The position numbers were made by a program, and so were the translations under genes. Below the pieces are notes generated by a model, which was given only the letters and a program-made list of their open reading frames with translations, had not been told where the DNA came from and did no database searches. DNA of 64,000 nt, taken from NCBI GenBank assembly GCA_964058805.1, contig CAXKVV010002167.1:310001-374000 (forward strand). Direction: 5' to 3'. Positions 16,477 to 64,000 of the stretch are shown here, piece by piece. Origin of the DNA: Schoenoplectus triqueter. Lineage: Eukaryota > Streptophyta > Magnoliopsida > Poales > Cyperaceae. Every line of letters starts with the position of its first letter. Position 1 is the first letter of the stretch.

Positions 16477-16482
16477 AATAAA
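16477..16482 (+). terminator. Possible polyadenylation signal AATAAA
   Basis: AATAAA occurs about 270 bp downstream of the TATA box, in a T-rich context. That is a plausible position for the R-region polyadenylation signal. A second AATAAA lies near 17009 before a T tract, so the choice is uncertain. Confidence 0.35.

Positions 16483-18250: not shown

Positions 18251-18253
<3 letters not shown>

Positions 18254-18281
<28 letters not shown>
18254..18281. repeat. (AT)n microsatellite
   Basis: An uninterrupted AT dinucleotide run inside the solo LTR. Confidence 0.95.
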
Positions 18282-18286
<5 letters not shown>

Positions 18287-18899
18287 ATTTAAAGATGTAA
18301 TTTTGTAAATAGATGGATAACATTTGTGTAATTTTGATTCAAATAACTTAAACTGCAAAGTATTACTGTATATTATTTCATGGACTGTATATGCATTTGT
18401 TTAAAGTTCGAACTGTATTATGGTCAACACTTGACAATACAATTTAATGCTATTGATAAGTTGATTTTGAAGTAATTTGAATATATGAATTATTGTGTAT
18501 TATGATGATTGGTATAGGTTGGTACTAGCTGACATCAGGTTTTGCATAAATTGTGATTTATATAAATGTCATATACAGACACATGTAGATTATATGATCT
18601 AGTTGATATTTAAAACTGCATACATATATTGTCTATGTTGACTCTATCAAACGTTGTAAAATAATCAAACACCAAAGTTTATATTCTTGCGGATCCAAGC
18701 CTCAAGTTCGATCTTTGAATGCAAAGAAGTGGGTAAAATGTAAATAGTAGATTGTAAAGAAAGAATTCAGCATCTACCTTGACCCAAGTTTAAGTTTAGA
18801 ATTGAAAGGAAAAGTTGTCCCAGCAGTAAAGGCAGATATAACTCACATCCATCTTGGCCTAATAATCAAATAAAATAAAGAGCCTGCGTCGAACGGTGG

Positions 18900-20040
18900 A
18901 AAGGAAAAGATGAAAGCCCAAATAAATAGAAGGTAGTGAAATACAATAATAAGAACAGAAAGTAATATTTTTATTCCAATAAAAATATGATAAACTAAAA
19001 AAAATCTCATATGTTCCCTACGAAACTAATATTTTCTCTAGCCGAGAACTTTTTTTGAAAATAAATAAATAAATAAAGTAAAATTCTTTGTAAATAATCA
19101 TGGCAAAAATAAATAAATTCTTTTCTCAAATGAAAAGTTCCATGTTATTTAGAAAATATATATAATAAAATAAATGAAACTAAAATAATGGGGCAAGATA
19201 CGTCAAATGTGTATAAGATAAGAAAAATAATATATATACATAAATAAAAATACTTCAACGAATTAAAAATAATAATAATAATACTTCTCCCTTTTAACAA
19301 AATAATAATGATGATGTTAAATAAAAATAAGTAAAACATTAAAGAGTAAATAAAAAATGAAATGAGAAAATATTTAAGCACACGTATAGATCTTAATTAT
19401 GAGAGATAATAAATAAATGTGTACAAATATAAATGAAATAAAAAATAAAATAAAACAGTAAAACCATTCATTAAATCAAACTTTCAAAATTAAACAAACT
19501 TCAAACAAAAATGAGAAAAGATTAATACATAAATGAAAGAGTATTAATATATAAAAAAATTAAAACAAAGATACAACTCCTATTCAATATGTTGAACTCT
19601 CAAAATTAAATAAACTTCAAATAAAAAAAATAAAAAAAATATATATAACTCTTATTCAATAATTCAAAATTTTAAAAGGAAATAAATTTCAAAACAAAGA
19701 TAAAATAAAATAAGTAAAGCTAAATATATAAATGAAAGAAAAATAAAATGCAAGGGAAATAAGAAGTCAAATAAAATAAAATATAATATAACTCTTTTAA
19801 CTCCCAAATTAAAAAAATTCAAAGAAAATAAAAATAAAAGAATAAATATAAATAAAATTAAATGCATAAAATAAAATAAAATAATTAAAAGAAACAAAAG
19901 TATTACCCTTTCACTAAATTAAATAAACTTCAAAATCTCAACATAAAAAATGAAATAGACAAATAAAATAAAATAAATAAGATAACAAAAAGAAATAAAA
20001 GATATCATCATTTTCATCAAATGAAATAAAAATTTAATCT
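18900..20040. other. A-rich low-complexity stretch of the solo LTR
   Basis: About 1.1 kb dominated by AAATA and AAATAAAAT runs on the plus strand. The short minus-strand ORFs here (19145-19381, 19664-19897) are Phe/Ile/Leu strings from AT-rich DNA. A comparable AT-rich stretch occupies the matching place in the other Tat LTR (about 46830-48060). No gene is seen. Confidence 0.85.
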
Positions 20041-20086
20041 TCAAAAGAAGTCAAACTTAACCCGAAAAAAAAATTAATTCTTTATC

Positions 20087-20560
20087 TTGAGTTGGTAAGG
20101 AGTCTTAACTCAATGTCTCATATCTTAAAAATCATTCAAGTCTCTATATGGATCATCGAGACTTTGAATGTCTAGATTTATGAATCGACAAAACGATTTA
20201 GATTCATAGTCTAGAATATCAGTAAAGACCAAGAAGGGGGCCAAATCCCGTCTTTCTGATACACCAGATCTTGATGTTGAGCGGGCAGAGCGCTTACGTT
20301 CACATCATGTATCTCGGAAGATTCACCTTGATCTTGATATTTGAGTTGGTAAGGAGCCTTAACTCAATATCTCGTATCTCGGGAACCATTCAGTATCTCT
20401 ATATGGATCATCGAGATATCTGAATGCCTAGGTCCATGAGCTGGCATAGCGCTTCATGTTCATGATCTAGAAGATCAGTTAAAGACGATTAAAATTTTCT
20501 CCGTCTTTCTGATAACCAGTCCTTGATGCTGAGCTGGCATAGCGCTTCAAGCTTCACATC
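20087..20560 (+). repeat. Hairpin array in solo LTR (paired duplicate units)
   Basis: Two rounds of related hairpins lie about 254 bp apart. TTGAGTT/AACTCAA occurs at 20087-20113 and again at 20341-20367. The next pair share the loop TATATGGATCAT. At 20133-20170 the stem is CATTCAA + GTCTC paired with GAGAC + TTGAATG. At 20387-20426 it is CATTCAG + ATCTC paired with GAGAT + CTGAATG. Two base pairs have changed on both arms. A further pair at 20272-20307 and 20525-20560 (TGATGT/ACATCA and GATG/CATC outer stems) shares GCAKAGCGCTT in the loop. Confidence 0.75.
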
Positions 20561-20584
20561 TTGCGTACTGATATTCACATGGTC

Positions 20585-20666
20585 TGAGCTGCCATTAATC
20601 GAGGCTCATGGTCTGAGTTGCCATTAATCGAGACTCACGGTCTGAACTGTCATTAATTGAGGTTCA
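20585..20666 (+). repeat. Three 29-bp-period hairpins with constant loop
   Basis: Units at 20585-20608, 20614-20637 and 20643-20666 are exactly 29 bp apart. The loop is TGCCATTAATCGAG in the first two, and nearly the same in the third. The stems are TGAGC/GCTCA, TGAGT/ACTCA and TGAAC/GTTCA. Each stem change is compensated on the other arm. This is the cleanest small example of covariation in the window. Confidence 0.85.
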
Positions 20667-20803
20667 CAAGGTGTATACTACCTTAAAAAGTTCCTATCTT
20701 CTCCGCCCTTTCTCACAGCAACCATTTAAAATTGCTTAACTATTCTACTTATTTTCTCTTTCTTAATCAGAGGTTCCTCGGGTTCAAAGCCCAGGGTAAT
20801 TAA

Positions 20804-20825
20804 CAATGGGGGCTTGCGCCCATTG
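20804..20825 (+). repeat. Palindromic box near the LTR end
   Basis: CAATGGG and CCCATTG flank the 8-base loop GGCTTGCG. The minus-strand LTR has the same loop with arms CGGTGGG and CCCACCG (plus-strand 45494-45515). Two adjacent base pairs have changed together between the two LTR subfamilies. It lies about 160-180 bp before the terminal CA in both. Confidence 0.8.
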
Positions 20826-20987
20826 GAATCTTAAAGACTCCACAATCTCTAAAACCTTTAAATGTGCATTCCAAATTCATATAAATATACCCAATGCACA
20901 CTTAGAGGGATCTCTGTGTCCTTCTTCCGCAATTCATCGCCCAGTTCCTTTTTCAGGGCGGTGAGAGGCGCGAAAAAGGGTCGCACA

Positions 20988-25909: not shown

Positions 25910-25921
25910 AGCAGGCGAAGG

Positions 25922-45317: not shown

Positions 45318-45493
45318 TGTGCGACCCTTTTTCGCGCGCCGCCGCACCGCCGCCGGGCGATGGGTTCTGCGGAAGAAGGACACGGAGATCCCTCCCGAGC
45401 GTGCATCTGCCGGATGTCGGCCGATTCTGCCGATTAGAGATATTTGGATGCACATTCAGGGGGTTTTTAGTGATTGTGAGTTCTTGTAGATTC

Positions 45494-45515
45494 CGGTGGG
45501 CGCAAGCCCCCACCG
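45494..45515 (-). repeat. Palindromic box near the 3' LTR end
   Basis: On the minus strand, arms CGGTGGG and CCCACCG enclose GGCTTGCG. This is the covarying counterpart of the box at 20804-20825, followed on the outer side by the same GGGTAATTAAC motif. Confidence 0.8.
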
Positions 45516-45634
45516 TTAATTACCCTGGGCTACGAACCTCGAGGCACCTCTGGATCTTTGAAAGAGAGAAGCAAATAGTATAGTTAAGAGATGGGCAAGT
45601 GGTCGTCTAAGTTTATAAAAATGGATCTACGGAA

Positions 45635-45872
45635 GATGAACCTACCAACAGACCGGTTCAATCTATGGAAGACAAACCTACAAACAGATCGGTTTTGTCT
45701 TATGGGGGACGAACCTACAAACAGACCGGTTCAGTCCATGCCACCTCGAGATGTAACCTTACCAACAGACCAGGTTAATCTCTTCATAGGGGCTTGAGGT
45801 GAGTCTACATACAGACCGACTCGACCTCCGTTGATCTAGAAGATAAACCTACAAACAGACCGGTTCAATCTT
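45635..45872. repeat. Six covarying hairpins, loop TACMAACAGACC
   Basis: The units are 45635-45663, 45670-45700, 45707-45737, 45748-45782, 45796-45828 and 45840-45872. Loops read TACCAACAGACC, TACAAACAGATC, TACAAACAGACC, TACCAACAGACC, TACATACAGACC and TACAAACAGACC. The stems differ: TGAACC/GGTTCA; AGACAAACC/GGTTTTGTCT; GGACGAACC/GGTTCAGTCC; GAGAT-TAACCT/AGGTTA-ATCTC; GAGGTGAGTC/GACTCGACCTC; AAGAT-AACC/GGTT-ATCTT. Most have one unpaired base at a constant place on the right arm. Loop sequence is kept and stem sequence is free to change only in pairs. Confidence 0.85.
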
Positions 45873-46099
45873 AACTAGTCAACAACCAATCACACAAAAT
45901 ACAACTCGAAGCACTGAGCCGGTTGATCTTGAGGTTGGTGAATCAGGAGAAGGGTGGCTATGGCCCACGTATTTCTTCTCACTGATCTTCTAGATCATGA
46001 ATTCGTAGCACTAAGCCGATTCATAAACCTAGGAAAACACAATTGCACACAATGTCAAACATGAAGCGCTGAGCCAGTTCAACATTGAGGCATGTGTTA

Positions 46100-46229
46100 G
46101 TGAAGGAACCTACCTACAGAACGGTTCACATTCACTGTTTTGTGGATGAATCTACCAACAGACCGATTCAATCTCACATTCTCGGGGAATGAGTCGGGAG
46201 ACAAACTCGTCGGCGGACGAGTTCAGTCT
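46100..46229. repeat. Three further hairpins of the same LTR
   Basis: 46100-46135 pairs GTGAA/TTCAC and GAACC/GGTTC around TACCTACAGAAC. 46142-46177 pairs GTG/CAC, GAT/ATC and TGAATC/GATTCA around TACCAACAGACC. 46199-46229 pairs AGAC/GTCT and AACTCGTC/GACGAGTT around GGCG. The first two belong to the TACMAACAGACC family. Confidence 0.75.
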
Positions 46230-46243
46230 TACCAGCTCAAATG

Positions 46244-46528
46244 GTCATGAATTACTTGTTCATGACACCGAGTCATTAAGATGTCATTTCGCTCGGACAT
46301 CGTAATGTTCTTCATCTTCAAAGTCGACATATCTCTCCATGCTGATGTCGTGGCTTTGGTCATTCTTCGGTGAGCGTCAAGATGTTCTTGTCTCGACTAG
46401 CCATTCTATATGTTGCATTACTTGTGCAAAATCACTATATTGCCCTACACCCCTTGTGTGAGCGTATTCAATCATGAGTTACTTGCTCATGACAGCGAGT
46501 CATTAAGATGTCACCTATCTAGGACATC
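46244..46528. repeat. 228-bp tandem duplicate with two hairpin families
   Basis: GTCATGAA/TTCATGAC around TTACTTG (46244-46266) recurs as TCATGAG/CTCATGA (46472-46492), an A-T to G-C compensated change. GATGTC/GACATC occurs at 46280-46301 and 46507-46528, with stem kept and loop diverged. Flanking text CGAGTCATTAA and CGTAATGTTCTTC is shared, so these are two copies of a ~228-bp unit. Confidence 0.75.
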
Positions 46529-46755
46529 GTAATGTTCTTCTTCTTCAGAGTCGATATATATCAAGTGTCAAGATGTTCCTGTCTCGACGTATCTCTTTAT
46601 GCTGCTATCGAAGCCTTAAGCATTCTACGTTAGGATGTTCTTGTCTCAACGTATCTTATTCTTCATCAAGTGTCGAAATGTTCTTGTCTCGACGTATCTT
46701 CTCATGTTATTATTGCAACCTTAGTTATCCTCCGTCAAGGTGTTCTCGTCTTGAC
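46376..46755. repeat. Five hairpins with TGTTCTTGTCT-type loop
   Basis: The units are 46376-46397, 46567-46588, 46626-46653, 46672-46693 and 46734-46755. The core RATGTTCTTGTCT is similar in all. The closing stems are GTC/GAC, GTC/GAC, TACGTT/AACGTA, GTCG/CGAC and GTCAAG/CTTGAC. The third and fifth show clear compensated changes. The stems of the first two are short and alone would be weak evidence. Confidence 0.6.
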
Positions 46756-46829
46756 TAATCAGTCTAAATGTGTGCAAATATTCATATGTGGCTCTACATT
46801 CCTTATGTGAGCATATTCATTCAAAAATG

Positions 46830-46882
46830 CACAAAGTCTATTATAATATCTTCCATTATTATTTTTTTTATTATGAAGATGC

Positions 46883-46932
<50 letters not shown>

Positions 46933-48060
46933 TTATTCTATTTATCTATGTAGAAAATTATTTGCAAAAATAATAAGAAAAAGGGGTAGCTATTAACTTA
47001 GAACTTTATTTATATTTTTGGGATTTTTATAATAGCTAAAATAGTAGAATTTTATTTTTATTATTTCTAAACTCTATTTATTCTATAGAAAATCACTTAC
47101 TAAAATAATAGAAGATAAAATGGCAATGATTTTATTTGTATATTTTTAATGTTTGTAATAGCTAAAGTAATAGAATTTTATTATTATATTCTATTATATT
47201 GAAATACTATTCATTATGTAAGAATCATTTACAAAATTAAAAGGTGGTTAGCTATACTATTTTACCATTATTATTTTTATTATTATATTTTTTATTATTA
47301 TTACTTTTTTTCTAATATCTATAATAGCTAAAAGAAATCATTACTAATATTCCATTCTATTTATTATACTATTTATTATATCTATTTCTATTATTCCTAT
47401 TTATTATCTATAGAAAAGTATAAGATTTTTTTTTACTAGTCATAAGAGATGAAATTCATTATGTTTTTATTATAACTATTATTTTTATTGCATTTTATTC
47501 ATCAAAAGTATTTTTATTGTATATATTTGTATAGAAATAACAAAAAGAAATACAATCCATATTATAAAACTATATTATCATTCTTTATTGTGAAAGAAAA
47601 TGCATAGTAGTATATTTGGTACATTTTGTGCTATTTATTCTTATTATTCTTTTTACAGGAAAATATCAAGAAATATCTATTATTATTCATATATTTTTTA
47701 TTTATCAAAGAATATAGCTAATCTCATTATTTATTATAGTATATTACTATCACTATTATTATTTCATGGAAAATCACTTGAAAATTACTAAAATATATCT
47801 AGTTATTATCTATGATTTTTATTCGTGTTTTTGGAATTTTTATAGTATTTAAAATGACAAGTCAAATCTAGGTCAACTATATCAATATATGTAATGCATT
47901 TTGCTTTTAAAATGTTTTATTATGATTATATTTCTAAAACTGGAATATTATCATATAGAAAAATATTATGGAAAATAAGAAAATTTTAGAAACAAATTTG
48001 AGTCAATTTGGAGTTCAGGAACATTTTCAAATCATTTATTTACTCCATATCATTACTATT
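46830..48060. other. AT-rich stretch of the 3' LTR, no gene
   Basis: Low-complexity ATT, TTTATT and TAGAAA-rich DNA. It matches in position and composition the A-rich stretch of the solo LTR. Nothing else is seen. Confidence 0.85.
46885..46931. repeat. (ATT)n microsatellite
   Basis: About 15 ATT units inside the AT-rich part of the 3' LTR. Short ORFs over it are Ile/Leu runs without meaning. Confidence 0.95.
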
Positions 48061-48810
48061 CTGTTATTATTTAATTAATGGGCTTAATCTGGGCCGCCAG
48101 ATCTACTCCAAGATTGGTGCGCATTTTTCTAACTCTCTTCTTCACTTGGGCCGCCAGATTAGTTTGAGATGAGTGTTTAATGGATCTACGGCCCAGATTA
48201 GCACAGAGTTATTATTTAAATGTTTAAACATATCTGGGCCGCTTGATTTAATTAAGATGCGTGTTTAATATGTATAAGGCCCAGATCTTTTCTCGTTTTA
48301 AATTTTCGAACTCTTGCCAAATCCCGTTCATCAGATATTCTTCAAGATTGACGGACACTTCAAAAATCGTGCAGACGATCTCTTCTCAGTCCCTGACCTC
48401 CTGTTGCGTTGAGATTCGCGTGTAATGGCGTTCCCGATGACCGGAGCTCTCCTTCTCCGATCAGACTTATGCCCTAGCGTCGCCTCACTTCAGTGAGCCT
48501 CTCTGTAGTCTTTGATTGGAAATCCATGCGGTGGCAGGCTTCGTATGATAGTACCGATGAGTATGTCAGTTAAAGTCGGTACCGAAATGCTTTCTTCATC
48601 AAATTCGACAGAATTAATCAAAGTTCTTGATGATTACAAGGTCGAGAAGCATCGTCTAAACATGAATATGCGATATAGGATGGGCAGAAGGCTTCCCTTT
48701 CGTTCTTGAAGGTGCTGAAGCAACTCACCACACGGCAATGCATGGTACCGGTTGGTACCGATCTTAATTGACTCAATTCATGGCCCTTATTCATCCAATT
48801 AGCACTCCTC

Positions 48811-49308
48811 AGGCCTAAAGGCACACCTAGGCATAGCTAGGGCCAGTGGCCTAATGTGTTATGAAGTGTTTAAGGCATGATGCTTACAGATTGTACACGG
48901 AATCGATCAATACCAGTTCATTCTTGACAATTATCGTATTATTGTATTCAAATCATCTTTCTTAGGCCTAAAGGCTCACCCAAGTGTTATTGGGGCCAGT
49001 GGCTCACTAAGATGATGATGAATTATCCCTACAACTTCAATAACCTATTGATTTGTGTCAGAATTAGAACAATTATAAGAATTAACTGATGCATCCAACT
49101 GAGATTATACAATTGACATGACTAGAAGACAGAAGATCATCATCTCCTATCTGTTATGCAAATATAAGCAAGGAGATTGAATAGAAAATGAAAAATCACA
49201 AAGAAACAGTGTAATAGAAATTGAATTATGATTTCTTGATACTCTCTTGACTGATCCAGGCCTAAAGGCTCACCAATCACTTTGTGATTGGGCCAGTGGC
49301 TCACTGGA
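48811..49308. repeat. Three cloverleaf-like modules
   Basis: Modules lie at 48811-48852, 48961-49011 and 49255-49308. Each contains GGCCTAAAGGC (mini-hairpin GCCT-AA-AGGC), then a central variable stem, then GGCCAGTGGC (mini-hairpin GCCA-G-TGGC). The central stems are CCTAG/CTAGG, CCCAA/TTGGG and CCAATCAC/GTGATTGG. The outer closing stem is CTTAG/CTAAG in module 2 and TCCAG/CTGGA in module 3; module 1 has lost it. The result is a closed four-way arrangement with two constant arms and two covarying stems. They lie about 0.4-0.9 kb downstream of the LTR's own TATA box on the minus strand. Confidence 0.8.
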
Positions 49309-49677
49309 TTCAGTCAATTACTATTGATTAGGGTTATTAAAGAAAGAACAAGAAAATGCAGAAAAAGAAAATGTAAAAAGATAGAACAAATTCTTAAAGA
49401 AAAGTAGCAAGAACAGAAAAGAAATCAATTGACTGTTTAACTAGCTATATCAAAGTTCTAAATTCATTTACAGAAATTAAAAAGAATTGCCAATTGAATG
49501 CATGAACAACTAACCTCTCAATCTGAATAGCAATCTAAATCAATTGATTTCTTTGTAATCTCTCTTCTTCTTTGTAATTGGCGACTGCTAGTGTATATCC
49601 TCTCTCAATTGCTCTACTAATGGATGTATGGATATCTCTGTATGTATCTCCCTTTTTCACTGTTGCCAATTTTCAGT

Positions 49678-49686
49678 TTATATAGG
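49678..49686 (-). promoter_or_regulatory. TATA box of the Tat LTR
   Basis: The minus strand reads CTATATAAA. It is the best core promoter for element transcription, about 2.86 kb after the LTR start. Everything at lower coordinates in the LTR would be R/U5 and transcribed. Confidence 0.6.
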
Positions 49687-49928
49687 CTAATTAGGCTGAT
49701 TAATCACAATTGTGATTGGTTAATTGCCTTTCACTCGGATTGCCACCTTGGGTTCATCTTCACCCTCCATTCTAATTCAATTAACGGTCCAGATAAGTTT
49801 GTGTTTGTTGCTGCAGCCGTATAACCGTTTCTGTTAGGATTTTTGACTGTGCCGCGATTTGGTTTGACTCCACACTCTCAATTACTCACATAACTCAACT
49901 GACAAGCGGGCCCGAGGCTATTACTTGC

Positions 49929-49936
49929 TATTTAAA
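49929..49936 (+). promoter_or_regulatory. Antisense promoter TATA box for the PMD gene
   Basis: TATTTAAA in a GCTATTTAAACACTCC context is followed by a CT-rich leader (about 49960-50060) and then by an ATG at 50266. It points opposite to the LTR's own TATA box and lies about 245 bp from it, making a divergent promoter pair. Function is inferred from position and sequence only. Confidence 0.5.
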
Positions 49937-50265
49937 CACTCCATGATCACTCTTAACGCCATTTCATTCATTCACCATTTCCAATTTCACTAATCCCTTT
50001 TCTGCCTCATTTTCTTCTTTTGATCAATTAGCATCTCACACCTCGAATTGCCTCACCAATTCATCTCCATTGGCGTCGCCTTGCCTCAAAGGATCCACTT
50101 TGTAGTGCAATTTGATCTCTATAGCGTCAATTCACCTTTTCTTATCAACTCAATTTCTGGTGATAACTCAACTCCACTTTTTGATCCCCTTTTTTCGTCT
50201 GTTGATTTGATAGCACCTACCATCCGATCGTCTAATCATCACCACTCGTTAGATCATCTTCAATC

Positions 50266-53200
50266 ATGGTGAGGCGTCAAGGGAAACGGAAGGCGCGAGC
50301 TTTGCTAGGATCGGACAATGGCGAGAAGAAGAGGGAGGGAGAAGGCTCTTCGACTGGTTTGGGTGCACATGGCGCGCGTGGTCCAAAGCGCAGGGGAGAA
50401 GAGGAGCAGCGGCATAGAGCTCATGCACCAGGTTTATCTCTTTCTTATTCTCCTTTTAAATTCAGCTGCGTTGAACTGAATGAATAGGCTATACAGACTT
50501 GGTTCATAGCTTAACTATGCGCCTCTGCCTGCATCTCTGACTGTTGGGCCCCATTGTCAGATGTAAATGGGCTTAGGAGTAGCCATGTCAGCAATTTAGG
50601 ATTAATTATGCTATTGTGGCACGTTTCTATTGGCTGTTTCATCTGATCTGGCAATATTCATACTAATCTCCCTGTTTAATCTTGCTGACTGTGTATTAAT
50701 CTGTGAGTGACACATGGCACATAATAGGGCCCACATGTGTAGCCTTGGTCCAATGGCCTGCTGCCATGTGTAATAGCTGTGACTAAAATGGTGAGGTGGC
50801 TGGCTAGAAAAATGCCATGTGGCACAGCTGAGTTGATGTGGCTTGATATAGCTGTGCCATGTGGCTTAGGGTTGGGTGAGATGGCCTCCTCTGGTTGTGC
50901 CGTGTGGCACAGGGGGAGTGTAGTGGACCACTGGTGTGATGCCATGTGGCATAGGATGGGATGAGGTGGCCCACTGGCTGTCTGCCACGTGGCACTGAGG
51001 TGGGGCCCACCTGTCAGTGACTCATGCCAGGGTGGGGCCCACTTGCTGACATGGCCCAATGAGAGACTGCCACGTGGCACACCCTCTCTCTTCGATTATT
51101 TTATGCCTCCTGTGTTTCTTGTACCCAGTTTGTACCCAGAGCTGCTGTTATCCCCAACTTGCACCCAGGATTGATCTGATCAAATCTCAGCCTTTGATTA
51201 TTCTATTTATTCTGCCTTTATTTCCCTTGAATTTATTCTGATAGCTCCACTTATCCAAAAATCATGAAAATTTCACCAAAAATCCCTAATTTCATGATGA
51301 TCATCCCTGTAATTTTTAATTCCATTTTTGCCCTTGCCTCTCTGAATTAAAAATTCTTTTATTCATAAAACCCTATTATTCCTTATGAATTAATCCCTGA
51401 TCTCAACTATAGCTCAATGTCTCTGCCAATTATCTCTCTCTTGCAGAAACCACCCTAACTAAATACCAATTAGACTTATATTGATATTTATTAGGGCTTG
51501 ATTTGATCAAATGCTGACTACTTATCAGCAATTAATACAAATCTAGACTTGATCAGATGGTTGCTCCCAGCTTTGGCACCTGATCAGTCTTGTGAAATTG
51601 ACTTTCAATCCCTTAACATGAGGGTGATTTGATCAAAGAACTGACTACTTATCAGTGATTGACACAAATCAAAGCATGGTTAGGTGGTTGCTCGCAGCTT
51701 TGGCACCAGGTCAGCCTTGAAAGCAAAATCACATTTGGAATTTCTCATGATTAGTTGCATCAAAATGCTAGCTTGACATTGACATCATTTCATGTAGTAT
51801 AGGGATTATACTGCTTCAGCTCCTTCCTAGGGTTAGCTTCAAAGGCAGATTTCTAGGGTTCAATTCTGACCCTCTTCAATAGGTCACTGAGGTGTGGGGT
51901 CCACCTGTCAGTGAAAATGGTCACATGGGTGACTCATCAGATAGGCTATGCTATTAGGTTCATCTGCAAGGGGCTGCCAGGTGGGTCCCACTTGTCAGAA
52001 AAAAATATAATCAAATGGCTGACCCATCAAGAGATCTTCTCTCTCCTAAATCTCCCGAGGGTCAGCCACCTCAAATGAGCAGAAGGTGGCTGGGTATTTA
52101 TATCCTTGCTCCATATTTAGGATTTCCTTGTGGGATTAATGCTTAACCTCTGTTCCGGGTTAGTTAGCTTTCTTAACAAAATAGGCTAGGTCCATGTCAT
52201 TGGAGCTGCTCATAAGGGACTGCCATGTGGGTCCCACTTGTCAGAAAAGATAAAATCACATGGTGACACCCAAGAGGTCTCCTCTCTCCCTCGATCTTCT
52301 TGGGTGTCACACATGCTGAGTGGATAGAGAATAGCGGGGTATTTATACTCTTCACTTTGCGCTCAGCATTCCATTGTGGGACTAATGGATTTGTTCCGGG
52401 GTTATGCAGCGACTTTTCCTGATCAGTGGGCCACCTTTCCACTGCTCTCTCTCTTCCCCCCTTTTCTTATGATTTATCATTATTCATCAATTTATTTCAT
52501 TTATTCATCCATTCATCCTTGAAACTTTTCAAGGGTAAACAAAGAGCCACCCACCAAGACGAGTCTTGAACGCTCGAAAGGCTTGTCTTGGTGCATTATT
52601 CCTTATTATTCATCATTTCATTTCTCATGACGTCTTCTCTTCTTCGGGTATTGTAGTTTTATCTCATGACGCCATTCCGCGTCGCCCCTTGAGTCATTAT
52701 CATTCTTTTTACGAGGATCCCAGCGATTGGACTCCTCTCGTCTCAGCCATCCGAGCGACTCCTGTCTACCCGCGAGGCGGCGGTTTATTTTTCAGGGATG
52801 ATCAGCCTCATGACATCATGCCCCTTCAGCCCTTAGGCGTTGCTTCCATAGCTCCTTTGACACATCTCCTGGGCAAGGAGATTATCGACGGGGAGGCTCA
52901 CAGGTGGACTACTGCTCCCTTCATCACTCCCTTAGAGTGCCATGGATATCAGCTAGAGTGGACCCGGTATGTGCTCATGCGGGAGGGGACTCTGCTCAGG
53001 CGAGCCGGGATATATGACTCGGTTTTCTTGTCGATGTTTCATTATCATATCGACACACCCTGGCTACGGGCTTTTTGTGAGAGGTGGAACTATTCCACCA
53101 ACACTCTATTCATTGACGATCGGGAGCTGACTCCGACCCTCCTAGAGATACAGCAGTTGACCGGGCTGCCGATCTTCGGTCATTTCTATGACGAGTTCAT

Positions 53201-56200
53201 GGTCTCGCCCGCTGACTCGGGGGACTTCACTCGATTCCCGCCTTCTTTGCATAGGATTTATGAGATTTACCATCATTTACGGAGGGGGCATCCCGGAGTT
53301 CCGTTCAGACATTGGATCGCCTATTTCACCGATCGGGTCCACACTCGCCCTACGGGTCTGGCTTCCACCAGAGATCCATTTGGTACAGGTCGGCTCGAGA
53401 TTCATCATGACGGCCCTATCCCATCTCAGGATACCCTGTGTTCACATGATGTAGATCGGGAGACTTATTTGACAGCTTTCATTTCTTGGTGGATTTGCTA
53501 CTTCTTATTACCTAGCTCTCCCGCATACACCATTCGGCCCTCGGTGTTCGTTATGGCGAGCCTGATCGCGCGTGGCGACAGGATTTCTTTGGCCGTGCCT
53601 ATACTGGCCAACATTTATAGGTGCCTCCGCGGTCTGACTTCATCTCGTAGTCCTTCACAGTGCCAGGAGCTGATCCCGTGGCATCTGATTAGCGGATGGC
53701 TCCATTTGCATTGGTCAGGCTCATATGATCCCGGCATGGCGGTCACGCTACGAGATCGTCTACCTTTATTGAGTGACTTAGCTGGGGTGCAGCCGGCTTC
53801 ATTGACTCCGGAGGCTGCCCGGTATAGATTCTTCAGGAGCCGGGACCATCTGCGCTTCTCTCGAGACAGGTCAGTGGCCCGTGGGGCAGCTAGGGTTACC
53901 GACAGGATGGTGATTGATGGCAGGGTTCCCTCTTCTGACCCCTCTAGCATTCGAGCCAGGCCTATTGATTTGGAGTACCTGATCAGTATTCGTCAGGGCT
54001 TTCTTCCTCTCAGATTGGGCGATCATATGTTCATCGAGCCCTATTCGCCACATCGATGCGCACATCAGTTTGGCTTGGATCAGGATATTCCAGCGCCTCT
54101 TCTCCGCCCTGTATCACTGGCGGCCGATTTGGAGGGTATCGGATGGTGCTACACTCACCTCTTCCGACTAGGCACGGGCACTTGCTATCAGATGGTATCC
54201 ACCTCTAGGACTTCCACCTTCACGAGGCGTTATCAGCAGTGGTATTATGAGACCATTCGCTCTTACCAGTCGTATACTCCTCCGGTGGTCGTCCGGAGTA
54301 CATGTCCGCGAGATGGCCAGCCTCTATTAGATGGCACCGTTTCGCGTGATCGCAGCCCTTTCCCGGCCATTGCCGCAGAGCCTGTCGACTTTCAGGGTTT
54401 AGACAGCCGGTTTTCTCATGCTCCTGTTAGGACCATTCTCACAGGTATGCTTCATCACCCTTTAGGTTATTTCCTTTTGATAAGCCTTATCTCATTTCGA
54501 CCAATTCTTCTTTGATTCAGAGCTGGCTTATGAGTGTGATCACGCGGAGCCTGGGTTCTCGGTCCCTCGTCCACGAGTAGTTGGCGTTCATTCTCAGCCA
54601 CATGTCGAGCCACCGGCTCTAGCTACTATGGGGAGGGATCGAGACGGTGCCTCTCAGCCGTCTTCTCCATCTCCTTTTTCTTCTTCCACTCCGGGTGATT
54701 TTCTTTACTGACTCGCCTATCCTTATTCGGGCGCACTTCATTTACACCTCTGATTAGAGTTTATTTTTCAGCTCGTGGGACATCTCCTGTGGAGGCCGCC
54801 CGAGATGACATCATAGCAGATCTATCGGCGCCTGCGAGCACTGCTATTCCAGGGTTTTGCACCGACCTTGCCGTCGCAGGTTCGTGTGCTTTATTTAATA
54901 CCTAGTTGCCAGCATGCACTAGTATTTTCATTCTTACATGTATATTTTACAGACCCTGAGGCCGATGACATGGCGTCTCCTCACCGCTCGGAGCCTTTCT
55001 TCCATGACGGTCCTGCTTCACCGTCGATTTTGCTGGTACCCACTGGAGATGGTGACTCATTTGATGTGATTCTGGGGCCAGTGCTCACTCTTGCATTACC
55101 AGAGGAGGCTTCTTTAGAGCAGGGGAGTCCATTGGCTGTCGAGCCCGCAGGCGACGAGCCATTACTGATCGAGGGAGGGCCATCTCATACTTCTTCATCT
55201 CCCGACGTGCAGCCTCTCATGGCCACAGATGGCAGAGCCTCGACTGAGCGGGTTGCAGTCGATTATGACTCGGAGTTGGAGGAGGGTTGGCTGGTGGAGC
55301 AGCTATTCCACAGCCCAGAGATGGAGATTCCGGCTGGCGAGGGTCTCGCTGAGCCTCATGCTTCCTCCGGTACTTTATATTTCTTTTATCATTTGCCCGT
55401 ATTTTACTTTTCATGTACTTATGCCTTCCATTTTATTTTTGCAGCCGGGTCTAGTGCACCTGCAGGTCCTCCTGAGGCGACCGACATCCCTATTCCCGAT
55501 TCAGTCCCGCCGGTCTCGGGCGACGAGACAATAGGTTAGATCTTCCCTTCCTTCTATTTCTTCTTAGGTTATAACAATTTGTCTAAACCATTTATTTTAC
55601 TTGCAGATGTTTCATCTAGGGATGTGCAGCTTGCCTTGGCCGCGCTAGGGGATGCACTCCGAGACACCTTCTTCGGAGGCTACCCGCTAGATTTTGAGAT
55701 TCTGGGTTCTCTGCCCGGCGGCTTCTCCTTCGATTGGTATAGGCTGATGCGGGATACTATTGCGCCAGCTCTACTCATTGCACCTCGTCTCGAGAGCACT
55801 TTCATTTCCAGGAGGTGTGAGGAGCTACTTAGGGCTTACCAGGATGCGAGCTCTCTCGTATATCAGCGCGAGTTGGAGATTCATGAGCTGCGCAGACATT
55901 TGGAGGCCGCTCGACTCCGCTATCTTCAGCGGCTCTCTTCTTGTGCCACTCTCCGCTCCATGGGAGTTAGTGGTGGGCCCGCTCGATTGCTCGTGCAGGA
56001 GCTAGAGGACCACAGATTATCGGTGGAGGGCTTCTCCCGACATCTAGCGGGACGTCTCCCAGAGCTGCAGATTCACGCGAGTGCTCGGGATAGTGCCTTC
56101 ACTCAGTTCTTGGACTTCGAGGCAGCTTCGGAGGAGGATAGGCACTCTCTCCATACTCATTTGGAGACCATCAGCACCGTGCTATTAGAGTTGGAGTCCC

Positions 56201-57954: not shown

Positions 57955-60900
57955 CTATGTGTAGTACTTCTTCAGATATCGCCCATTAATCGGTGGCATG
58001 GGCCTTTCACCTTCATGGTCTATGAGTTGGTATGCGCCGCCCTCGTATACCTTCTCAATTACATATGGCCCTTCCCAGTTCGGGGAGAATTTCGGGCCGA
58101 TGTGCCGGCCAATGATCGGCCTTTTAAGAACAAGAACAAGCTCTCCTTGTTGAAATGCCCTGACTCGCGCCATTTTGTCATATGCCCTTGCCATTTTTGC
58201 CTGATATATCTCAAGGTTCTGCTGGGCTATTAATCTTTTCTCGTCCATGGCATCCAATTCGTCCAATCTAAGTTGTTGGCATTCATCCATGGTCATATCG
58301 TTTTGCATAGCCACCCGCAATGACGGTAATTCCACCTCAAGAGGGAGGACGGCTTCAACCCCAAAAGCCAGAGAATACGGGGTAGCTTGCGTAGGCGTTC
58401 GATATGTGGTCCGATAAGCCCATAATGCCTCTTGTAGACGATTATCCCAGTCTCGTTGGTTGCCGTCTACGGTCTTCTTCATGATGTTGATTAGGGTTTT
58501 GTTAAAGGCTTCGGCCAGGCCGTTGGCTCTCGGGTTGTAAATGGACGAGAATCTCCAATCAATGTTAAATTGCTCCGCCAGGGCATAGACTTTGGAGCTC
58601 TTAAAGGCCGTCCCGTTATCGGATATTATCCGTTGCGGCGTACCGAATCGGTAGAGGATGTGCGTCTTAAAGAACTTGACCACATCGGATGCTTTGACTT
58701 CTTTGAGCGGGATGGCTTCGGCCCATTTTGTAAAGTAATCTGTCGCCGCCAGGATGAACCGGTGACCTCTCGACGTCGGAGGGTCTATGGGCCCCACTAT
58801 GTCTGTGCCCCACATATTAAATGGCCAGGATGCTACCGTGGGGTGCAACGGGTTTGGCGCTTGATGTATAAAAGGGCCATGTATCTGGCACATGCGGCAC
58901 TTCTTTGCATGCTCTTCACAATCAGCCACCATCGTGGGCCAATAATATCCCATTCGCTTGATCTTTAACTTCATTTTCGGCCCAGACTGATGTGCTCCGC
59001 ATAGTCCAGAATGAACTTCTTTCATAACTTGCCCGGCTTCAGGCCCTGATACACATCTTAGCCATAACTGATCATAAGATCTACGGTATAGCGTATTGCC
59101 CACATATGCATACCGTAGTACCCGCTTTCTTAGTTGATCAGCTATCCTTTTATCTTTAGGGAGGGTGCCATGCCGGAAATATTCAATGAATGGCTGTCTC
59201 CAATCATCGTCTTCAGTTATCATTGCTTCTTGGCATTCCATTTTTTCTAGCCCGGCATTTTCATTACTCGCATCATCTGTTATTTGACACAATGATAATG
59301 GTCTCCTATTGCGGACGATGATGTGGATTTCCGGTTCTGTTGGTTCACCCAGCTCCTTGGCGAGTTTGGCCAACGCATCTGCTTCACCATTCACGGCCCT
59401 CGTGACCTTCTCGATGGACACGTACGGGATTTTCTTCATTAGTTCCATGGCCTTTTGGTGATATTGTATTAGCTCCGGCTTTAGGACCTTATATTCGCCA
59501 ATTATTTGATTTATGATCAACTGTGAATCCCCAAAGATACGCACAGCCTTGATTTCCAGCTCCAATGAAAGCTCTAGTCCGGCGATGAGTGCCTCATACT
59601 CTGCTTCATTATTTGTACATGGTTCGGTTAAAGCCAGAGAATGTCGTATTATCCCGCCCTCCGGGGTTACGAAGACTAGTCCTGCGCCAGCTCGCACAGT
59701 TGGGACTCCCGGGCCCGCGATTGGCTTGATTGAAGAAGCACCATCAAAGTACATCTCCCATATAGGACTTCCTTCTTCAACATGTAGGGTTTCCTCATCA
59801 GGGAAGTCACATTTTAATGGGGAGTCGTCTTGGATCGGGTGTGCAGCCAGGAAATCTGCTAGCGCCTGCCCCTTTATCGCCTTTTGCGGTGTATAGGTGA
59901 TGTCGAATTCAGTGAGGATGATAGCCCACTTGGCCAACCTCCCCGTTAGCATTGGCCGAGTCATCAGATACTTGAGAGGGTCCACCTTGGATATTAAAAT
60001 GATTTTATGGGCCAGCATGTAGTGCCTCAACTTCTTCACCGCGAAGATTAGGGCTAAACAATGCTTCTCAATCGGTGAATACCCGTGCTCTGCCCCCACC
60101 ATCATGCGGCTTAAGTAATACAGCGCATTTTGGTTACCATCCTGATTTTCTTGTGCCAACAAAGCTCCCAAGGATCCATCCAGGGCGGTTGTATATAGAA
60201 TGAGTTCCTTCCCGGGTATGGGCGCCGCCAATACTGGAGGGTTGAGCAGATATGCCTTGATTTCTTCAAAGGCTCGCTGGCACTCGCCATCCCACTTAAA
60301 CGGGATATTCTTCTTAGTCAGCCGGGTGAAGGGTTGGATTTTACCCGATAGGTTGGCTATGAACCGCCTGATGTACGCCAATTGCCCTTGCAAAGATCGC
60401 AATTGTTTTAAATTCTTTGGCGGGGATAATTCAGTGATTGCTTTGATCTTGCCCGGGTCTATCTCAATTCCCCTGTGGCGTACTACAAACCCCAGAAATT
60501 TACCAGATGATACCATAAATGCGCATTTCAACGGGTTTAATTTGAGCGCATGTTCTCTTAGGCGGTTGAAAACGACCTCGAGGTATTGGAGGTGTTCTTC
60601 ATATGACATAGCCTTGATGACTAAGTCGTCCACATAGCACTCAACTATCTTGTGGATCAGATCGTCGAATATTCTCGTCATCGCCCGTTGATAGGTGGCT
60701 CCCGCATTTTTGAGCCCAAACGGCATGACTTTGTAACAATATATGCCAATCGGCGTGCGGAATGCCGTATGCCTCTCATCTTCTGGCGCCATTTTGATTT
60801 GATTATAGCCCGCATAACCGTCCATGAAGGAGAAGACTTCATAGGAGGATGTGTGGTCAATTATGATTTCGGTTACTGGGAGCGGGAAATCATCTTTAGG

Positions 60901-63900
60901 GCACGCCTTATTTAGGTCCCGAAAGTCCACACAGATGCGGATCTGCCCATTTTTCTTCTTAACCGGGACAATGCTAGCCACCCATTCTGGTGTTTCTTCT
61001 TCCCGTATGAAACCGGCGTCGATGAGTTTCTTTGTCTCTTCCACGACCTTCTCTTCGAGTTCTATTCTCATTCGCCTCGGCGCTTGTTTAATTGGCTTGA
61101 AGGTTGGATCAATTTTTAAGTAATGGACCGCCACGTTGGGATCTAATCCAGGCATTTCTTTATAACTCCAAGCGAAGCAGTCCATGTAGCTTCTAAGGAA
61201 TGTTTTCAACCTGTCAGCCACCTCTTCCGGCAAAGACGCGCTTATGAAAGTTGGTCGTGGGTCTTCTTCCGTCCCCAGATTAATTTCCGCTAACTCATCG
61301 ACCGTATTAGGCTCCTTTTCTAGCTGCTTCAAAGCATTTTTCAGGACCGGGGTATTATCCTCTTCTGTTTTATTGTCTGGCATTTCGACAGAAGTCATAC
61401 AGCAGCTCTCTTTCATACGGTACTCGTCGAGAGACCCCTCAAAACATGCTGCGTCATCGCAGTTATACCCTAATCCCCGGGTGTATTTTATTTTACCATC
61501 CAGGCCCAGGACTTTATTCTGGCCGCCATTCCAGAGTTCATCAAAGCGCTTGGCCTCGGCCTTGGATATGTCTCTCAGACATTTTGCCCTTTTCGCCAAT
61601 TTATATAGCTCCTTTCCAAAGGGATGAGATGCAACATCACCGCTCGTTGCATTCTCTGATTCTTGTTCTATCACCCACTTCTTCCAAGTGTTGTGATCAG
61701 GATTCTTCAGAGACTGGGTTGAATCGCTCTGATAGAAAATTATAGCCTTGTGGATGATAATCTTCCCTTTGAGGCGCTCTACCTTTGCCGGCACAACAAA
61801 GGTCTTTAGGGTTTGGATGTGGTTCACCTCCCTTGGTATAAGGCCTTTAAAATGCCTTTCGGGAACCACAGTAATCTCCAGCGCTGCCATCTCTTCTTCT
61901 ATTTCAATGTTCATGACTGAGTTGGAGCGGTAGATTTCTTTGATCGGCTTACGTCTCGCAGCCTTAGGTTTACTAGGTACGGGAGTGTGCGAGATCGTAT
62001 AAGCAACCCCTTTGCCCTTGTTATTCAGGTTATGCGGAGCTGGGTCTTGTTGAAAGCTCTTCGGGAGTTGTATTGTCCCGTTTCTATGCCCTTCTTCTAT
62101 TAGGTCTTTGAATACCCAACACTCTTCAATAGTATGACCCAATATGCGATGATAAGGGCAGAATTCGCCTTCGCCGGCTCTTTCTATGTCTGCGGGTCTT
62201 TTACAGGCGGGAAGTGTCAATCCGCTCTTTAGGGCCTGCTCAAATATCCGAGCTGTTTTATTTCTCAGAAAAGAGTATGGTTTACTCTTCTTGACCTTGA
62301 GAGTCTGCATGACGGTCGATTGTTTAGTTTTCGTTTCTTCCCCCTTCGATTCATCTACTATGACAATTACCCGCTTGCCGCTATCGGGTGCTTGTCTTTC
62401 GGGGGTCCCGGAACGGGGTTCGCTCGTCATTTCTTTGAGCAGCTCGGAATTATAAATCGCGGTTTGCAGGTTTTCAATCATTATCATGATTTCATTGTGT
62501 TGCGTCTTGATATCCTGCATCACTTCCCATTGTTCAGATACCTCTCTCCTATTATTTTCAACTTGGTGCCTTATTTCGTCGATTGCATTCCAGACGCGAC
62601 CTTCGAAATTTTCCCGCCATGAGCGTTCTTCACTTATAGGCCTCGGCCTAACCGGGTTATCCCTTCCACCACCGGATCCCGTGTTGATCATAAATGACTC
62701 CTCACTTTCATTATCTGTTTCGGGCCCTTTATATGGCTTTTTGAGGATGTGATAGATGATCTCTTCGTCAGATTCCTCTTCCCAGGGTTGACGATCATGG
62801 CCAGATTCTTCTTCCGAGGTGGTATTGTCCGAATTGTTAGAATCTTCGGAGTCTTCTCCCGAAGTTGCCTCTATGATCTGAATTTGAGGGGTGTTGGCAG
62901 GCTTAAAATTGAAAACGACCTCCTCCTCAGAATCACTTGACTTGATTTCGCTCGGCTTTATTTGGGCCTTATACGCAGCCACCTGTTTGAAGCGGAAGGT
63001 TGCTTCTTTACCCGACTTTCTTCCGGGTCTTTGGGCTCGAGCACCTCGGGGTTTAATGTTAAATTTGACCTCTTCTTCTTCTCCAGATGAGGTATCAAAT
63101 TTAGGGCCTTTATTGAAGGATTTCTGACCTGCTTTTGTTATAGGCCGGCTCGGCGCCACAGCGGATTTAGGCAGAAAATACTGGGCGTCATTGAACTTAA
63201 TCTCATGCACCCCGAATGGCTTGACATCTCCGTCAATTCTCTTTTGCTTACCATTCTCGATATATTTCAGGCATTGGTGCAGAGTAGAGGGTATGACCTG
63301 ATTGCTGTGAAGCCACGGGCGACCCAGCAACGCCCGATAAGAGGTTTCAGCGTCAATGACATAGAATTTAGTAGGCGCTTTTAGGCTTCCGCATTGCAGG
63401 TTCAGAGTTATAGCTCCCAGGGCCTTTTGGGAGTTTTGATTAAAGCCATGAATAATCACCTTTTCATCAGATAGATTCTTCACATCTAAGGTGATAGTCT
63501 TTAAGGTTTTAAGCGGCATGATATTGATCGAAGACCCTGCGTCGACCAGGATGCGGCCAATCTTCTGCCCTCCGCAGTTTCCGGTGATGTATAGCGGGCG
63601 GTTATGGTCGACGGTGCCTATTAGGAGGTCGTCGTCCGTGAAATTTATACAGGCGGCCCGTTTGGCGGTGAATAAGGCTTCTTGCATATTTTGCTCTACA
63701 AAGTATGACTTGTACTTCTCAGGATCTTGCAAGGCCTGAATTAGAACCTCCCTTAGGTCTTGTGACATCATCAATGCGTCAAATATGCTTAATAGTGCTG
63801 GAATTTTACGCAGATGTGCCAACACGTTATATTCTTCGCCCGTCGACCGGGTCTTTTCTGGGTTCTTGCTTGGGTTCTCGACCTCTTTACCTTTATTTAG

Positions 63901-64000
63901 GGCCTTATCCTTTCCTTTATCGGAATCCTTGGGAGCCTGTCTCTCGGGTATATAAGTCCCGGACCGGAGTACGGCTTTACATTCTTCATTCTTGGTCCCA
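57955..64000 (-). CDS. Tat-like gag-pol polyprotein (5' partial)
   Basis: The frame is open from the stop TAG (57955-57957) to the window edge, at least 2014 codons; the start is outside. In order: end of a gag-like region; retropepsin-like DAGSS (63529-63543); a long Ser/Glu/Asp-rich segment with repeated FNFKP-type motifs; a CPYHRILGHTIEEC zinc-knuckle-like motif (62119-62160); reverse transcriptase with YVDD (60625-60636); a degenerate first RNase H; a second RNase H with FDGASS, NNEAEYEAL, FGDSQ and ADALAKLAKEL (about 59356-59754). The integrase has H-H-C-C ligands (about 58888-59013) and D, D, E codons starting at 58803, 58620 and 58512 (35 residues between the last two). No stop or frameshift is seen, so this part looks intact. 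The second RNase H is diagnostic of the Tat lineage. A knuckle between protease and RT is unusual, since gag knuckles normally precede the protease. Confidence 0.93.
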   Translation of the reverse strand, partial: GTKNEECKAVLRSGTYIPERQAPKDSDKGKDKALNKGKEVENPSKNPEKTRSTGEEYNVLAHLRKIPALLSIFDALMMSQDLREVLIQALQDPEKYKSYFVEQNMQEALFTAKRAACINFTDDDLLIGTVDHNRPLYITGNCGGQKIGRILVDAGSSINIMPLKTLKTITLDVKNLSDEKVIIHGFNQNSQKALGAITLNLQCGSLKAPTKFYVIDAETSYRALLGRPWLHSNQVIPSTLHQCLKYIENGKQKRIDGDVKPFGVHEIKFNDAQYFLPKSAVAPSRPITKAGQKSFNKGPKFDTSSGEEEEVKFNIKPRGARAQRPGRKSGKEATFRFKQVAAYKAQIKPSEIKSSDSEEEVVFNFKPANTPQIQIIEATSGEDSEDSNNSDNTTSEEESGHDRQPWEEESDEEIIYHILKKPYKGPETDNESEESFMINTGSGGGRDNPVRPRPISEERSWRENFEGRVWNAIDEIRHQVENNRREVSEQWEVMQDIKTQHNEIMIMIENLQTAIYNSELLKEMTSEPRSGTPERQAPDSGKRVIVIVDESKGEETKTKQSTVMQTLKVKKSKPYSFLRNKTARIFEQALKSGLTLPACKRPADIERAGEGEFCPYHRILGHTIEECWVFKDLIEEGHRNGTIQLPKSFQQDPAPHNLNNKGKGVAYTISHTPVPSKPKAARRKPIKEIYRSNSVMNIEIEEEMAALEITVVPERHFKGLIPREVNHIQTLKTFVVPAKVERLKGKIIIHKAIIFYQSDSTQSLKNPDHNTWKKWVIEQESENATSGDVASHPFGKELYKLAKRAKCLRDISKAEAKRFDELWNGGQNKVLGLDGKIKYTRGLGYNCDDAACFEGSLDEYRMKESCCMTSVEMPDNKTEEDNTPVLKNALKQLEKEPNTVDELAEINLGTEEDPRPTFISASLPEEVADRLKTFLRSYMDCFAWSYKEMPGLDPNVAVHYLKIDPTFKPIKQAPRRMRIELEEKVVEETKKLIDAGFIREEETPEWVASIVPVKKKNGQIRICVDFRDLNKACPKDDFPLPVTEIIIDHTSSYEVFSFMDGYAGYNQIKMAPEDERHTAFRTPIGIYCYKVMPFGLKNAGATYQRAMTRIFDDLIHKIVECYVDDLVIKAMSYEEHLQYLEVVFNRLREHALKLNPLKCAFMVSSGKFLGFVVRHRGIEIDPGKIKAITELSPPKNLKQLRSLQGQLAYIRRFIANLSGKIQPFTRLTKKNIPFKWDGECQRAFEEIKAYLLNPPVLAAPIPGKELILYTTALDGSLGALLAQENQDGNQNALYYLSRMMVGAEHGYSPIEKHCLALIFAVKKLRHYMLAHKIILISKVDPLKYLMTRPMLTGRLAKWAIILTEFDITYTPQKAIKGQALADFLAAHPIQDDSPLKCDFPDEETLHVEEGSPIWEMYFDGASSIKPIAGPGVPTVRAGAGLVFVTPEGGIIRHSLALTEPCTNNEAEYEALIAGLELSLELEIKAVRIFGDSQLIINQIIGEYKVLKPELIQYHQKAMELMKKIPYVSIEKVTRAVNGEADALAKLAKELGEPTEPEIHIIVRNRRPLSLCQITDDASNENAGLEKMECQEAMITEDDDWRQPFIEYFRHGTLPKDKRIADQLRKRVLRYAYVGNTLYRRSYDQLWLRCVSGPEAGQVMKEVHSGLCGAHQSGPKMKLKIKRMGYYWPTMVADCEEHAKKCRMCQIHGPFIHQAPNPLHPTVASWPFNMWGTDIVGPIDPPTSRGHRFILAATDYFTKWAEAIPLKEVKASDVVKFFKTHILYRFGTPQRIISDNGTAFKSSKVYALAEQFNIDWRFSSIYNPRANGLAEAFNKTLINIMKKTVDGNQRDWDNRLQEALWAYRTTYRTPTQATPYSLAFGVEAVLPLEVELPSLRVAMQNDMTMDECQQLRLDELDAMDEKRLIAQQNLEIYQAKMARAYDKMARVRAFQQGELVLVLKRPIIGRHIGPKFSPNWEGPYVIEKVYEGGAYQLIDHEGERPMPPINGRYLKKYYT

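Follow-up and report, generated by a model that had tools for sequence, protein, structure and literature searches.

The window (the whole stretch of 64,000 nucleotides of Schoenoplectus triqueter DNA that was analysed) carries one long LTR of a Ty3/gypsy element together with its gag-pol frame, an oppositely oriented frame with a plant mobile domain (PMD), and a solo LTR of a diverged relative, and their coordinates were collected together with those of the hairpins and helices in Table 1. The partner LTR begins at C2079:377181, which corresponds to window position 67181, and lies 21,863 bp rightward. The two LTRs were 99.94% identical over 6,824 bp and 100% identical over a further 403 bp to the LTR end, and the element is bounded by TG..CA ends and a 5-bp target duplication, AACGC. 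The order of the pol domains, as determined by Pfam, was RVT_1, RT_RNaseH, RVT_3, Integrase_H2C2 and rve, i.e. reverse transcriptase (RT), two RNase H domains and integrase, and Gag (Retrotrans_gag) was found in L039:3-3068(-), which adjoins the right-hand LTR. Protease families gave matches below their Pfam cut-offs only, and the Pfam search of pieces of Gag turned up no zinc knuckle. Among named proteins, the best match came from Ananas (71% over the whole query), and jgi entries reached 96% over 72%. Given the LTR pair with TG..CA ends and target duplication, the second RNase H domain (dual RNase H domains are a mark of Tat elements) and an antisense ORF located between pol and the 3' LTR, the element appears to have the build of the Tat lineage, as judged from domain layout.

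On the minus strand, the LTR end reads GGGTCGCACA, followed by GGATC and then by TGGCACGCCCAGTGGGACC, which we take to be PBS-like from its resemblance to a tRNA 3' end. No tRNA was found by ARAGORN. The sense strand of the element is the minus strand, because both the gag-pol frames and the PBS-like site read on it, and the hairpin array therefore lies near the sense 3' end of the LTR, beside the PBS-like site. In sense orientation, the six-hairpin array occupies LTR positions 6670-6908, with 316 nt between its 3' end and the LTR end. The plus strand was also considered as the sense strand and was rejected, since the PMD frame is antisense and gag-pol is on the minus strand.

Several further features of the element and its surroundings were recorded. 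A 73-codon ATG frame at 50266-50487 (+) inside the LTR, some 2 kb ahead of the PMD frame (52539), may be the first exon of an antisense gene starting within the LTR. A splice-acceptor-like TTTTGCAG is located directly before the gag ATG (L039:3030-3060, minus strand), and it could be speculated that it would permit a spliced RNA for Gag and an unspliced RNA for packaging. In several copies of the LTR (G000 copies on C1587, C1986, C1000, C1004 and C1664), its outermost 76-80 bp recur alongside it with a spacing of about 146 bp. The sense-5' part of the LTR has, at 50700-52300, recurring GC-rich inverted repeats of the form CACTGAGGTGGGGCCCACCTGTCAGTG. At 25232-36132, a Ty3/gypsy element is found in satellite as a tandem, with several blocks 99.6-99.9% identical and with the gag and RT domains present twice.

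Table 1. Positions of the LTR elements, coding frames, hairpins and helices in the window.
Feature	Position	Strand	Description
LTR of the element with Tat-type build (family A)	45318..52541	-	7,224 bp, TGTTTACCC...TCGCACA; direct repeat
gag-pol frame	57955..63999	-	runs open to the window edge; abuts L039:3-3068(-)
Antisense frame with plant mobile domain (PMD)	52539..54515	+	between LTR and pol; opposite to gag-pol
H0	45494..45515	-	loop CGCAAGCC (+), stem CGGTGGG/CCCACCG
Six-hairpin array, HP1-HP6	45634..45872	-	recovered in register; stems also in the sense consensus fold
HP1	45634-45664	-	
HP2	45669-45701	-	
HP3	45707-45737	-	
HP4	45748-45782	-	
HP5	45796-45828	-	
HP6	45840-45872	-	
E hairpins	45902..46086	-	E1 45902-45925 (4-bp stem); E2 45997-46024; E3 46051-46086
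M1	45944..45984	-	CAG.GAGAAG/CTTCTC.A.CTG
Two more array-type hairpins, HP7 and HP8	46099..46177	-	HP7 46099-46136; HP8 46142-46177; also in the sense consensus fold
HP9	46199..46229	-	
K hairpins	46244..46492	-	loop TTACTTG (sense CAAGUAA), stems differ: 46244-46266 TCATGAA/TTCATGA; 46413-46429 TTGCA/TGCAA; 46472-46492 TCATGAG/CTCATGA
D hairpins	46274..46534	-	46274-46307 and 46501-46534; stem CATTA.GATGTC/GACATC.TAATG
C helices	46325..46755	-	46325-46350, 46376-46397, 46567-46588, 46627-46652, 46672-46693, 46734-46755
Family B solo LTR	14678..20987	+ (sense)	6,310 bp; duplication GCCGT on both sides
Family B array	20585-20666	-	three units, sequences as read on -: loop CTCRATTAATGRCA; stems TGAAC/GTTCA, TGAGT/ACTCA, TGAGC/GCTCA
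Family B H0	20804-20825		stem CAATGGG/CCCATTG (CGGTGGG/CCCACCG in A)
Family B duplicated covarying hairpins	20387-20426 / 20133-20170		around the identical 13-nt loop GATGATCCATATA

Hairpin array in the LTR

Eight inverted repeats of about 31-38 nt each were found as units of the array, with spacings of 36, 37, 44, 46, 44, 261 and 42 between successive units. An earlier reading made from the sequence only had described six inverted repeats sharing one loop, with two further units at 46100 and 46142; all eight hairpins were recovered in register, the last two as HP7 and HP8, and exact identity of the loop did not hold. The exact loop TACMAACAGACC is present in five of the eight units (HP1, 3, 4, 6 and 8), and the loops of HP2, HP5 and HP7 are TACAAACAGATC, TACATACAGACC and TACCTACAGAAC, respectively, so the common loop is written as TACNWACAGAHC on the plus strand, corresponding to GDUCUGUWNGUA in sense RNA. 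The usual unit on the plus strand consists of a lower stem, a 5-bp upper stem, a 12-nt loop, the 5-bp partner arm, a 1-nt bulge and the lower stem again; in sense RNA the bulge is usually on the 5' side, with the lower stem beyond it. HP4, with its bulge on the opposite side, and HP7, with an internal loop, are exceptions to this layout.

The same reading had held that the stems are all different and that each stays paired. The former was corrected, since the 5-bp upper stem GAACC/GGTTC is common to HP1, HP3 and HP7 and there are five types in all; the latter was borne out, with 39 of the 40 upper-stem positions of the eight window units paired, an extent reached by a fraction of 0.00113 of 100,000 shuffles in which arms were swapped among the eight units. 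When the five distinct stem types were permuted, the native arrangement was the only one of 120 to pair all 25 of 25 positions.

Upper stems were also counted in 103 distinct units drawn from 100 loci, among which three genomic copies are present twice; 16 loci (L001-L008, L039, L040 and L111-L116) were omitted as duplicates, other stretches or family B. Five self-pairing types were found in 90 of the 103 units, namely GAACC/GGTTC (43), AAACC/GGTTT (13), GAGTC/GACTC (12), GAATC/GATTC (12) and AACCT/AGGTT (10). The other 13 units had an off-pair, which was A.C in 11, G.T in 0 and another mismatch in 2; A.C on the plus strand is G.U on the minus strand, i.e. in sense RNA.

Over 82 Mb of the genome in 2,086 contigs, 838 exact matches to the loop were counted, against 13 for the reversed pattern, and the HP5 pattern with at most three mismatches gave 358 matches, against 0 reversed. 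The loop-and-stem pattern was also matched in viral contigs (one stretch) and genome contigs (two stretches), as single matches without a surrounding array, which were judged to be chance. In a subfamily comprising L103, L105, L106 and L107, several units have the shorter loop TACTACAGATC and the array size differs, and in L106 and L107 a 48-bp unit is in tandem repetition.

Neighbouring helices and family B

Besides the array, sixteen helices, some with other fixed loops, were listed within 45494-46755; the window gave 0 matches in Rfam above the gathering score. Among 88 copies, the H0 pair 45495/45514 was G-C in 80, A-T in 4 and A.C in 4, and the HP9 pair 46209/46218 was G-C in 22, A.C (sense G.U) in 42, A-T in 20 and G.T in 1, being gapped in 3. 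The E loop has 16 nt and reads YGGCYYAGYGCUWCRN in sense in its common states. Its core AGYGCU is self-complementary in RNA, with two G.U pairs when Y is U; it was found in 86 of 88 copies of E1, with C/U as a common polymorphism. In sense RNA, E3 forms a 10-pair helix including two G.U pairs. Hairpins with a self-complementary loop, the form expected of a dimerisation site, are thus represented by the E loops three times in family A and three times in family B. The stems of the C helices include GTCAA/TTGAC, GTCGA/TCGAC and others, and the last five stand around related loops. The D hairpins reverse the pattern of the array, having an identical stem and differing 10-nt loops.

The family B solo LTR sits inverted inside a 58-bp satellite array. 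When families A and B were compared, about 145 bp around H0 matched at 81%, and the rest of the LTR pair was without a match in that search. The domain order H0 - array - E - M - E is common to both families, the E loop core is carried three times by B, and the array loop differs. At the place corresponding to M, family B has CAG.AAAGACG/CGTCTTT.AA.CTG, with AAGACG/CGTCTT against GAGAAG/CTTCTC in A, and its hairpin duplicate has the stems CATTCAG.A.TATCTC/GAGATA.CTGAATG and CATTCA.A.AGTCTC/GAGACT.TGAATG.

Pair states across copies

Pair states were followed in an alignment of family A and its subfamily, for which 99 sequences were extracted (one of 100 loci was lost to the length filter), giving 91 distinct rows. 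Doubled views (L101/L044, L104/L098 and L108/L036) were dropped, leaving 88 rows, 85 of them distinct over 45440-46550; doubled copies remain in the upper-stem counts, the single-column test and the random re-pairing, and a recount changed the numbers little. The helix list (24 helices, 196 pairs) was compiled by visual inspection, in part once the strand bias was known. Removal of C2, C3, HP6 and E3, which have an off-pair in the window, left a strict set of 20 helices (166 pairs) that are Watson-Crick throughout there. Control values at the 3-copy threshold came from 200 draws, each of 196 column pairs outside the stems.

Among the 85 copies and 196 pairs, positions with A.C outnumbered those with G.T by 32:7 at a threshold of at least three copies (p 7e-5), by 47:9 at at least two and by 75:35 at at least one. 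The corresponding ratios in the strict set were 17:7 (p 0.064), 30:9 (p 0.0011) and 58:33 (p 0.011), respectively, and those for HP1-HP8 alone were 4:0, 7:1 and 18:8, in the same direction and none significant. The A.C share in the non-stem control had a mean of 0.44 and a maximum of 0.58. Mismatching positions at the 3-copy threshold numbered 0 in the stems and 20.3 on average in the control (minimum 11), and the alleles present in at least three copies comprised 30 transitions and 0 transversions in the stems, against 101 and 37 elsewhere (p 0.0004).

Two Watson-Crick types were found at 15 pairs, of which 14 also had the sense wobble and 4 the opposite off-pair, G.T. Eight compensated pairs were counted at the 3-copy threshold in the distinct set; the control mean was 2.6 and its maximum was also 8. 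When the stem columns were randomly re-paired, the compensated fraction had a mean of 0.004 and a maximum of 0.037, against an observed value of 0.046, and the A.C share scattered widely around a mean of 0.54, up to 1.00. Changes were also placed on a tree built from non-stem columns, by which 149 changes from Watson-Crick to A.C and 44 to G.T were obtained, with 100 and 8 returns to Watson-Crick, respectively; these event counts are not independent because LTR copies may recombine and the tips are many, and the position counts are safer. The ratio of tree-placed A.C to G.T was 115:42 in the fully paired helices, 33:8 in HP1-HP8 and 1,109:1,433 in the non-stem control, and ten double changes were left unexplained by single steps.

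Several other tests were weak or negative. A lenient automatic symmetric helix finder gave 35 A.C and 34 G.T, i.e. no asymmetry, and found 19 hairpins, barely above the 16-18 obtained from eight Markov sequences. The single-column transition test gave one-sided p values of 0.11, 0.048, 0.21 and 0.68, and is blunted because each compensated pair contributes one change of each kind. In the lower stems of the array units (AACCT units omitted), 23 A.C, 26 G.T and 29 mismatching cells were counted, without a wobble asymmetry. In family B (7 copies, 11 helices), 36 A.C, 26 G.T and 23 mismatches were recorded in 629 ungapped cells, becoming 20 and 20 for A.C and G.T after omission of two E helices whose window copy has an off-pair, a comparison in which post-insertion decay may swamp the signal since most B copies look old. 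The covariation and the one-strand wobble, both above their controls, nevertheless point to a selected RNA secondary structure.

Folding energy

Against dinucleotide shuffles, the array alone gave a z of -2.07 on the sense (minus) strand and -2.72 on the plus strand, and windows of 120 nt across it gave z from about +0.2 to -2.5. The adjoining 45895-46310 gave a z of -5.02 on the sense strand. Folding no better than that of dinucleotide-shuffled controls had been named beforehand as evidence against selection on pairing; the array escapes it weakly and 45895-46310 clearly. Of 7 overlapping stretches, 5 had the lower consensus-fold energy on the sense strand, with sums of -618 in sense and -576 in antisense, a comparison between strands that is weak because their base composition differs.

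Discussion

An RNA structure is very probably formed on the sense strand of this element. It is supported by the asymmetry of the off-pairs at stem positions, most of which wobble-pair on the strand that gag-pol and the PBS-like site independently identify as sense, together with the stems being free of shared transversions. The sequence-only reading had offered two alternatives beside it, arm copying and a DNA cruciform. In the first, as considered here, one arm would be copied into the other by template switching in the quasi-palindrome, during replication or reverse transcription, and pairing would be an unselected by-product; template switching is an established process by which stems may arise and be restored (PMC8794818). 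Arm copying predicts no wobble intermediates, and the single-sided sense wobble seen at 14 of the 15 compensated pairs, 4 having the opposite off-pair too, is therefore against it, as are the strand-biased off-pairs, the stems without shared transversions and the adjacent pairs of HP9, which are found in several mixed states. When arm conversion was compared in this way with independent double substitution, as had been proposed, the pattern of template switching, in which several bases change at once to give identical arms with no intermediates, did not emerge, the ten double changes mentioned above being left over. Arm copying is disfavoured as the main cause and is very unlikely as the whole explanation, and it may contribute.

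In the second, as considered here, selection would act on DNA, either on cruciforms in the LTR or on protein binding sites of dyad symmetry there. Loops of 12 to 16 bases do not favour cruciform extrusion, and a cruciform predicts no strand preference, so the A.C bias argues against it; a DNA site would likewise predict G.T equal to A.C on the plus strand and fixed arms, whereas the arms differ among the units. The inverted repeats do lie in an LTR, and Sireviruses have repeated palindromic motifs upstream of the TATA box of the LTR (PMC2829016), which speaks for the DNA explanation. We regard it as highly improbable as the main cause, with a contribution possible.

If RNA pairing is accepted, as the G.U bias in sense and the lack of shared transversions suggest, its position and role are to be considered, and the placement in the LTR leader that had been proposed along with it is plausible: the domain may lie in the 5' leader, just upstream of the PBS-like site. 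Alternatively, the region may be U3, with a structure in the 3' UTR that acts in 3'-end formation or strand transfer, and the final 316 nt of the LTR could accommodate R-U5. This is unlikely, given that the region adjoins the PBS-like site, a usual place for leader signals, and that six of the seven TATAWAW matches in the sense LTR are upstream of the region (195, 440, 2858, 4698, 5511 and 5528) and one is inside it (5982), weak evidence because such matches are common in AT-rich DNA. A real RNA structure could also serve translation, stability or export, for example by cap-independent initiation across a long ATG-rich leader. In other retroelements, structured leaders are known to play such roles, and scanning would be hindered by the 34 ATGs that follow position 5,700 of the sense LTR if this is leader. 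The family-specific repeated loops would, however, suggest a cognate ligand rather than translation factors of general function, and a role of this kind seems somewhat unlikely, if by no means far-fetched.

We consider that the array is probably part of a structured RNA domain of the sense transcript, with recognition for packaging as its likeliest use. Selection appears to hold the stems paired and the loops near-constant, and the stem sequence drifts via paths between G-C, G.U and A-U. Because one loop occurs many times and is swapped as a set in family B, a cognate multivalent ligand such as Gag is suggested, and many hairpins with one loop might form a multivalent platform for the element's own Gag or nucleocapsid, by which its RNA would be packaged selectively. 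The E hairpins, with the core AGYGCU in both families, might act as kissing-loop dimerisation sites. That the function is that of a packaging and dimerisation domain is, in our estimate, a tentative assignment with somewhat less than an even chance. A possible extension, put forward with more reserve, is a swappable multivalent RNA recognition code in which the loop is replaced between families (GDUCUGUWNGUA in A and UGYCAUUAAUYGAG in B) and the E hairpins, with the shared AGYGCU, and the domain order are kept, each family packaging its own RNA. If this code is real, no packaging domain of a plant Ty3/gypsy element would, to our knowledge, have had the support of covariation before this one. 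Plant LTR retrotransposons make up the bulk of many plant genomes, and the region bears on how they choose their own RNA. It would offer an RNA domain apparently under selection, on a known strand, with loops testable as ligands and with a natural loop swap between two families in one genome; the strand on which intermediates wobble-pair gives, in addition, a way to separate RNA selection from arm copying.

Among known systems, the 5' packaging and dimerisation domains of retroviruses, Ty1 and Ty3 (Psi, DIS kissing loops) resemble this domain in being structured RNA with self-complementary or complementary hairpin loops, which they carry near the genomic 5' end and which may lie there in the present element too. 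A short palindrome at a hairpin apex is required for Ty3 dimerisation in vitro (PMC11381356) and kissing loops are described for Ty1 (PMC5454406). The domain described here differs from them in its eight-hairpin one-loop array with several stem types, its other loop families and its place upstream of the PBS-like site within a very long plant LTR. In BARE, likewise a plant LTR element, conserved dimerisation and packaging signals of BARE2 are mentioned in PMC3735527, in which no mention of kissing or stem-loop was found; BARE belongs to the Copia superfamily, whereas the present element is Ty3/gypsy.

The Sireviruses, too, are plant LTR elements whose non-coding parts carry recurring inverted repeats, namely repeated palindromic motifs (RM) and a PPT inverted repeat. 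The RM are short palindromes upstream of the TATA box with a CGG-CCG core in all listed elements but one, and no mention of hairpin, stem-loop or compensation was found in their source (PMC2829016); the present array, in contrast, has compensated stem variation, near-fixed loops and sense RNA as the pairing strand. Retand/Tat elements share with the present one the non-chromovirus Ty3/gypsy type, the large internal region and an antisense ORF placed between pol and the 3' LTR. In Retand, TRP28 antisense ORFs and tandem repeats lie between pol and the 3' LTR, whereas here the antisense frame carries PMD and the array sits within the LTR, and no mention of hairpin, secondary structure or mobile domain was found in that paper (PMC11963269). 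A literature search over titles and the beginnings of abstracts yielded no description of hairpins with a fixed loop arrayed in tandem in a plant LTR, by which absence is not shown. Structured leaders with packaging and dimer signals are thus known, and what appears to be new here is a tandem array of fixed-loop hairpins with covarying stems in a giant plant LTR.
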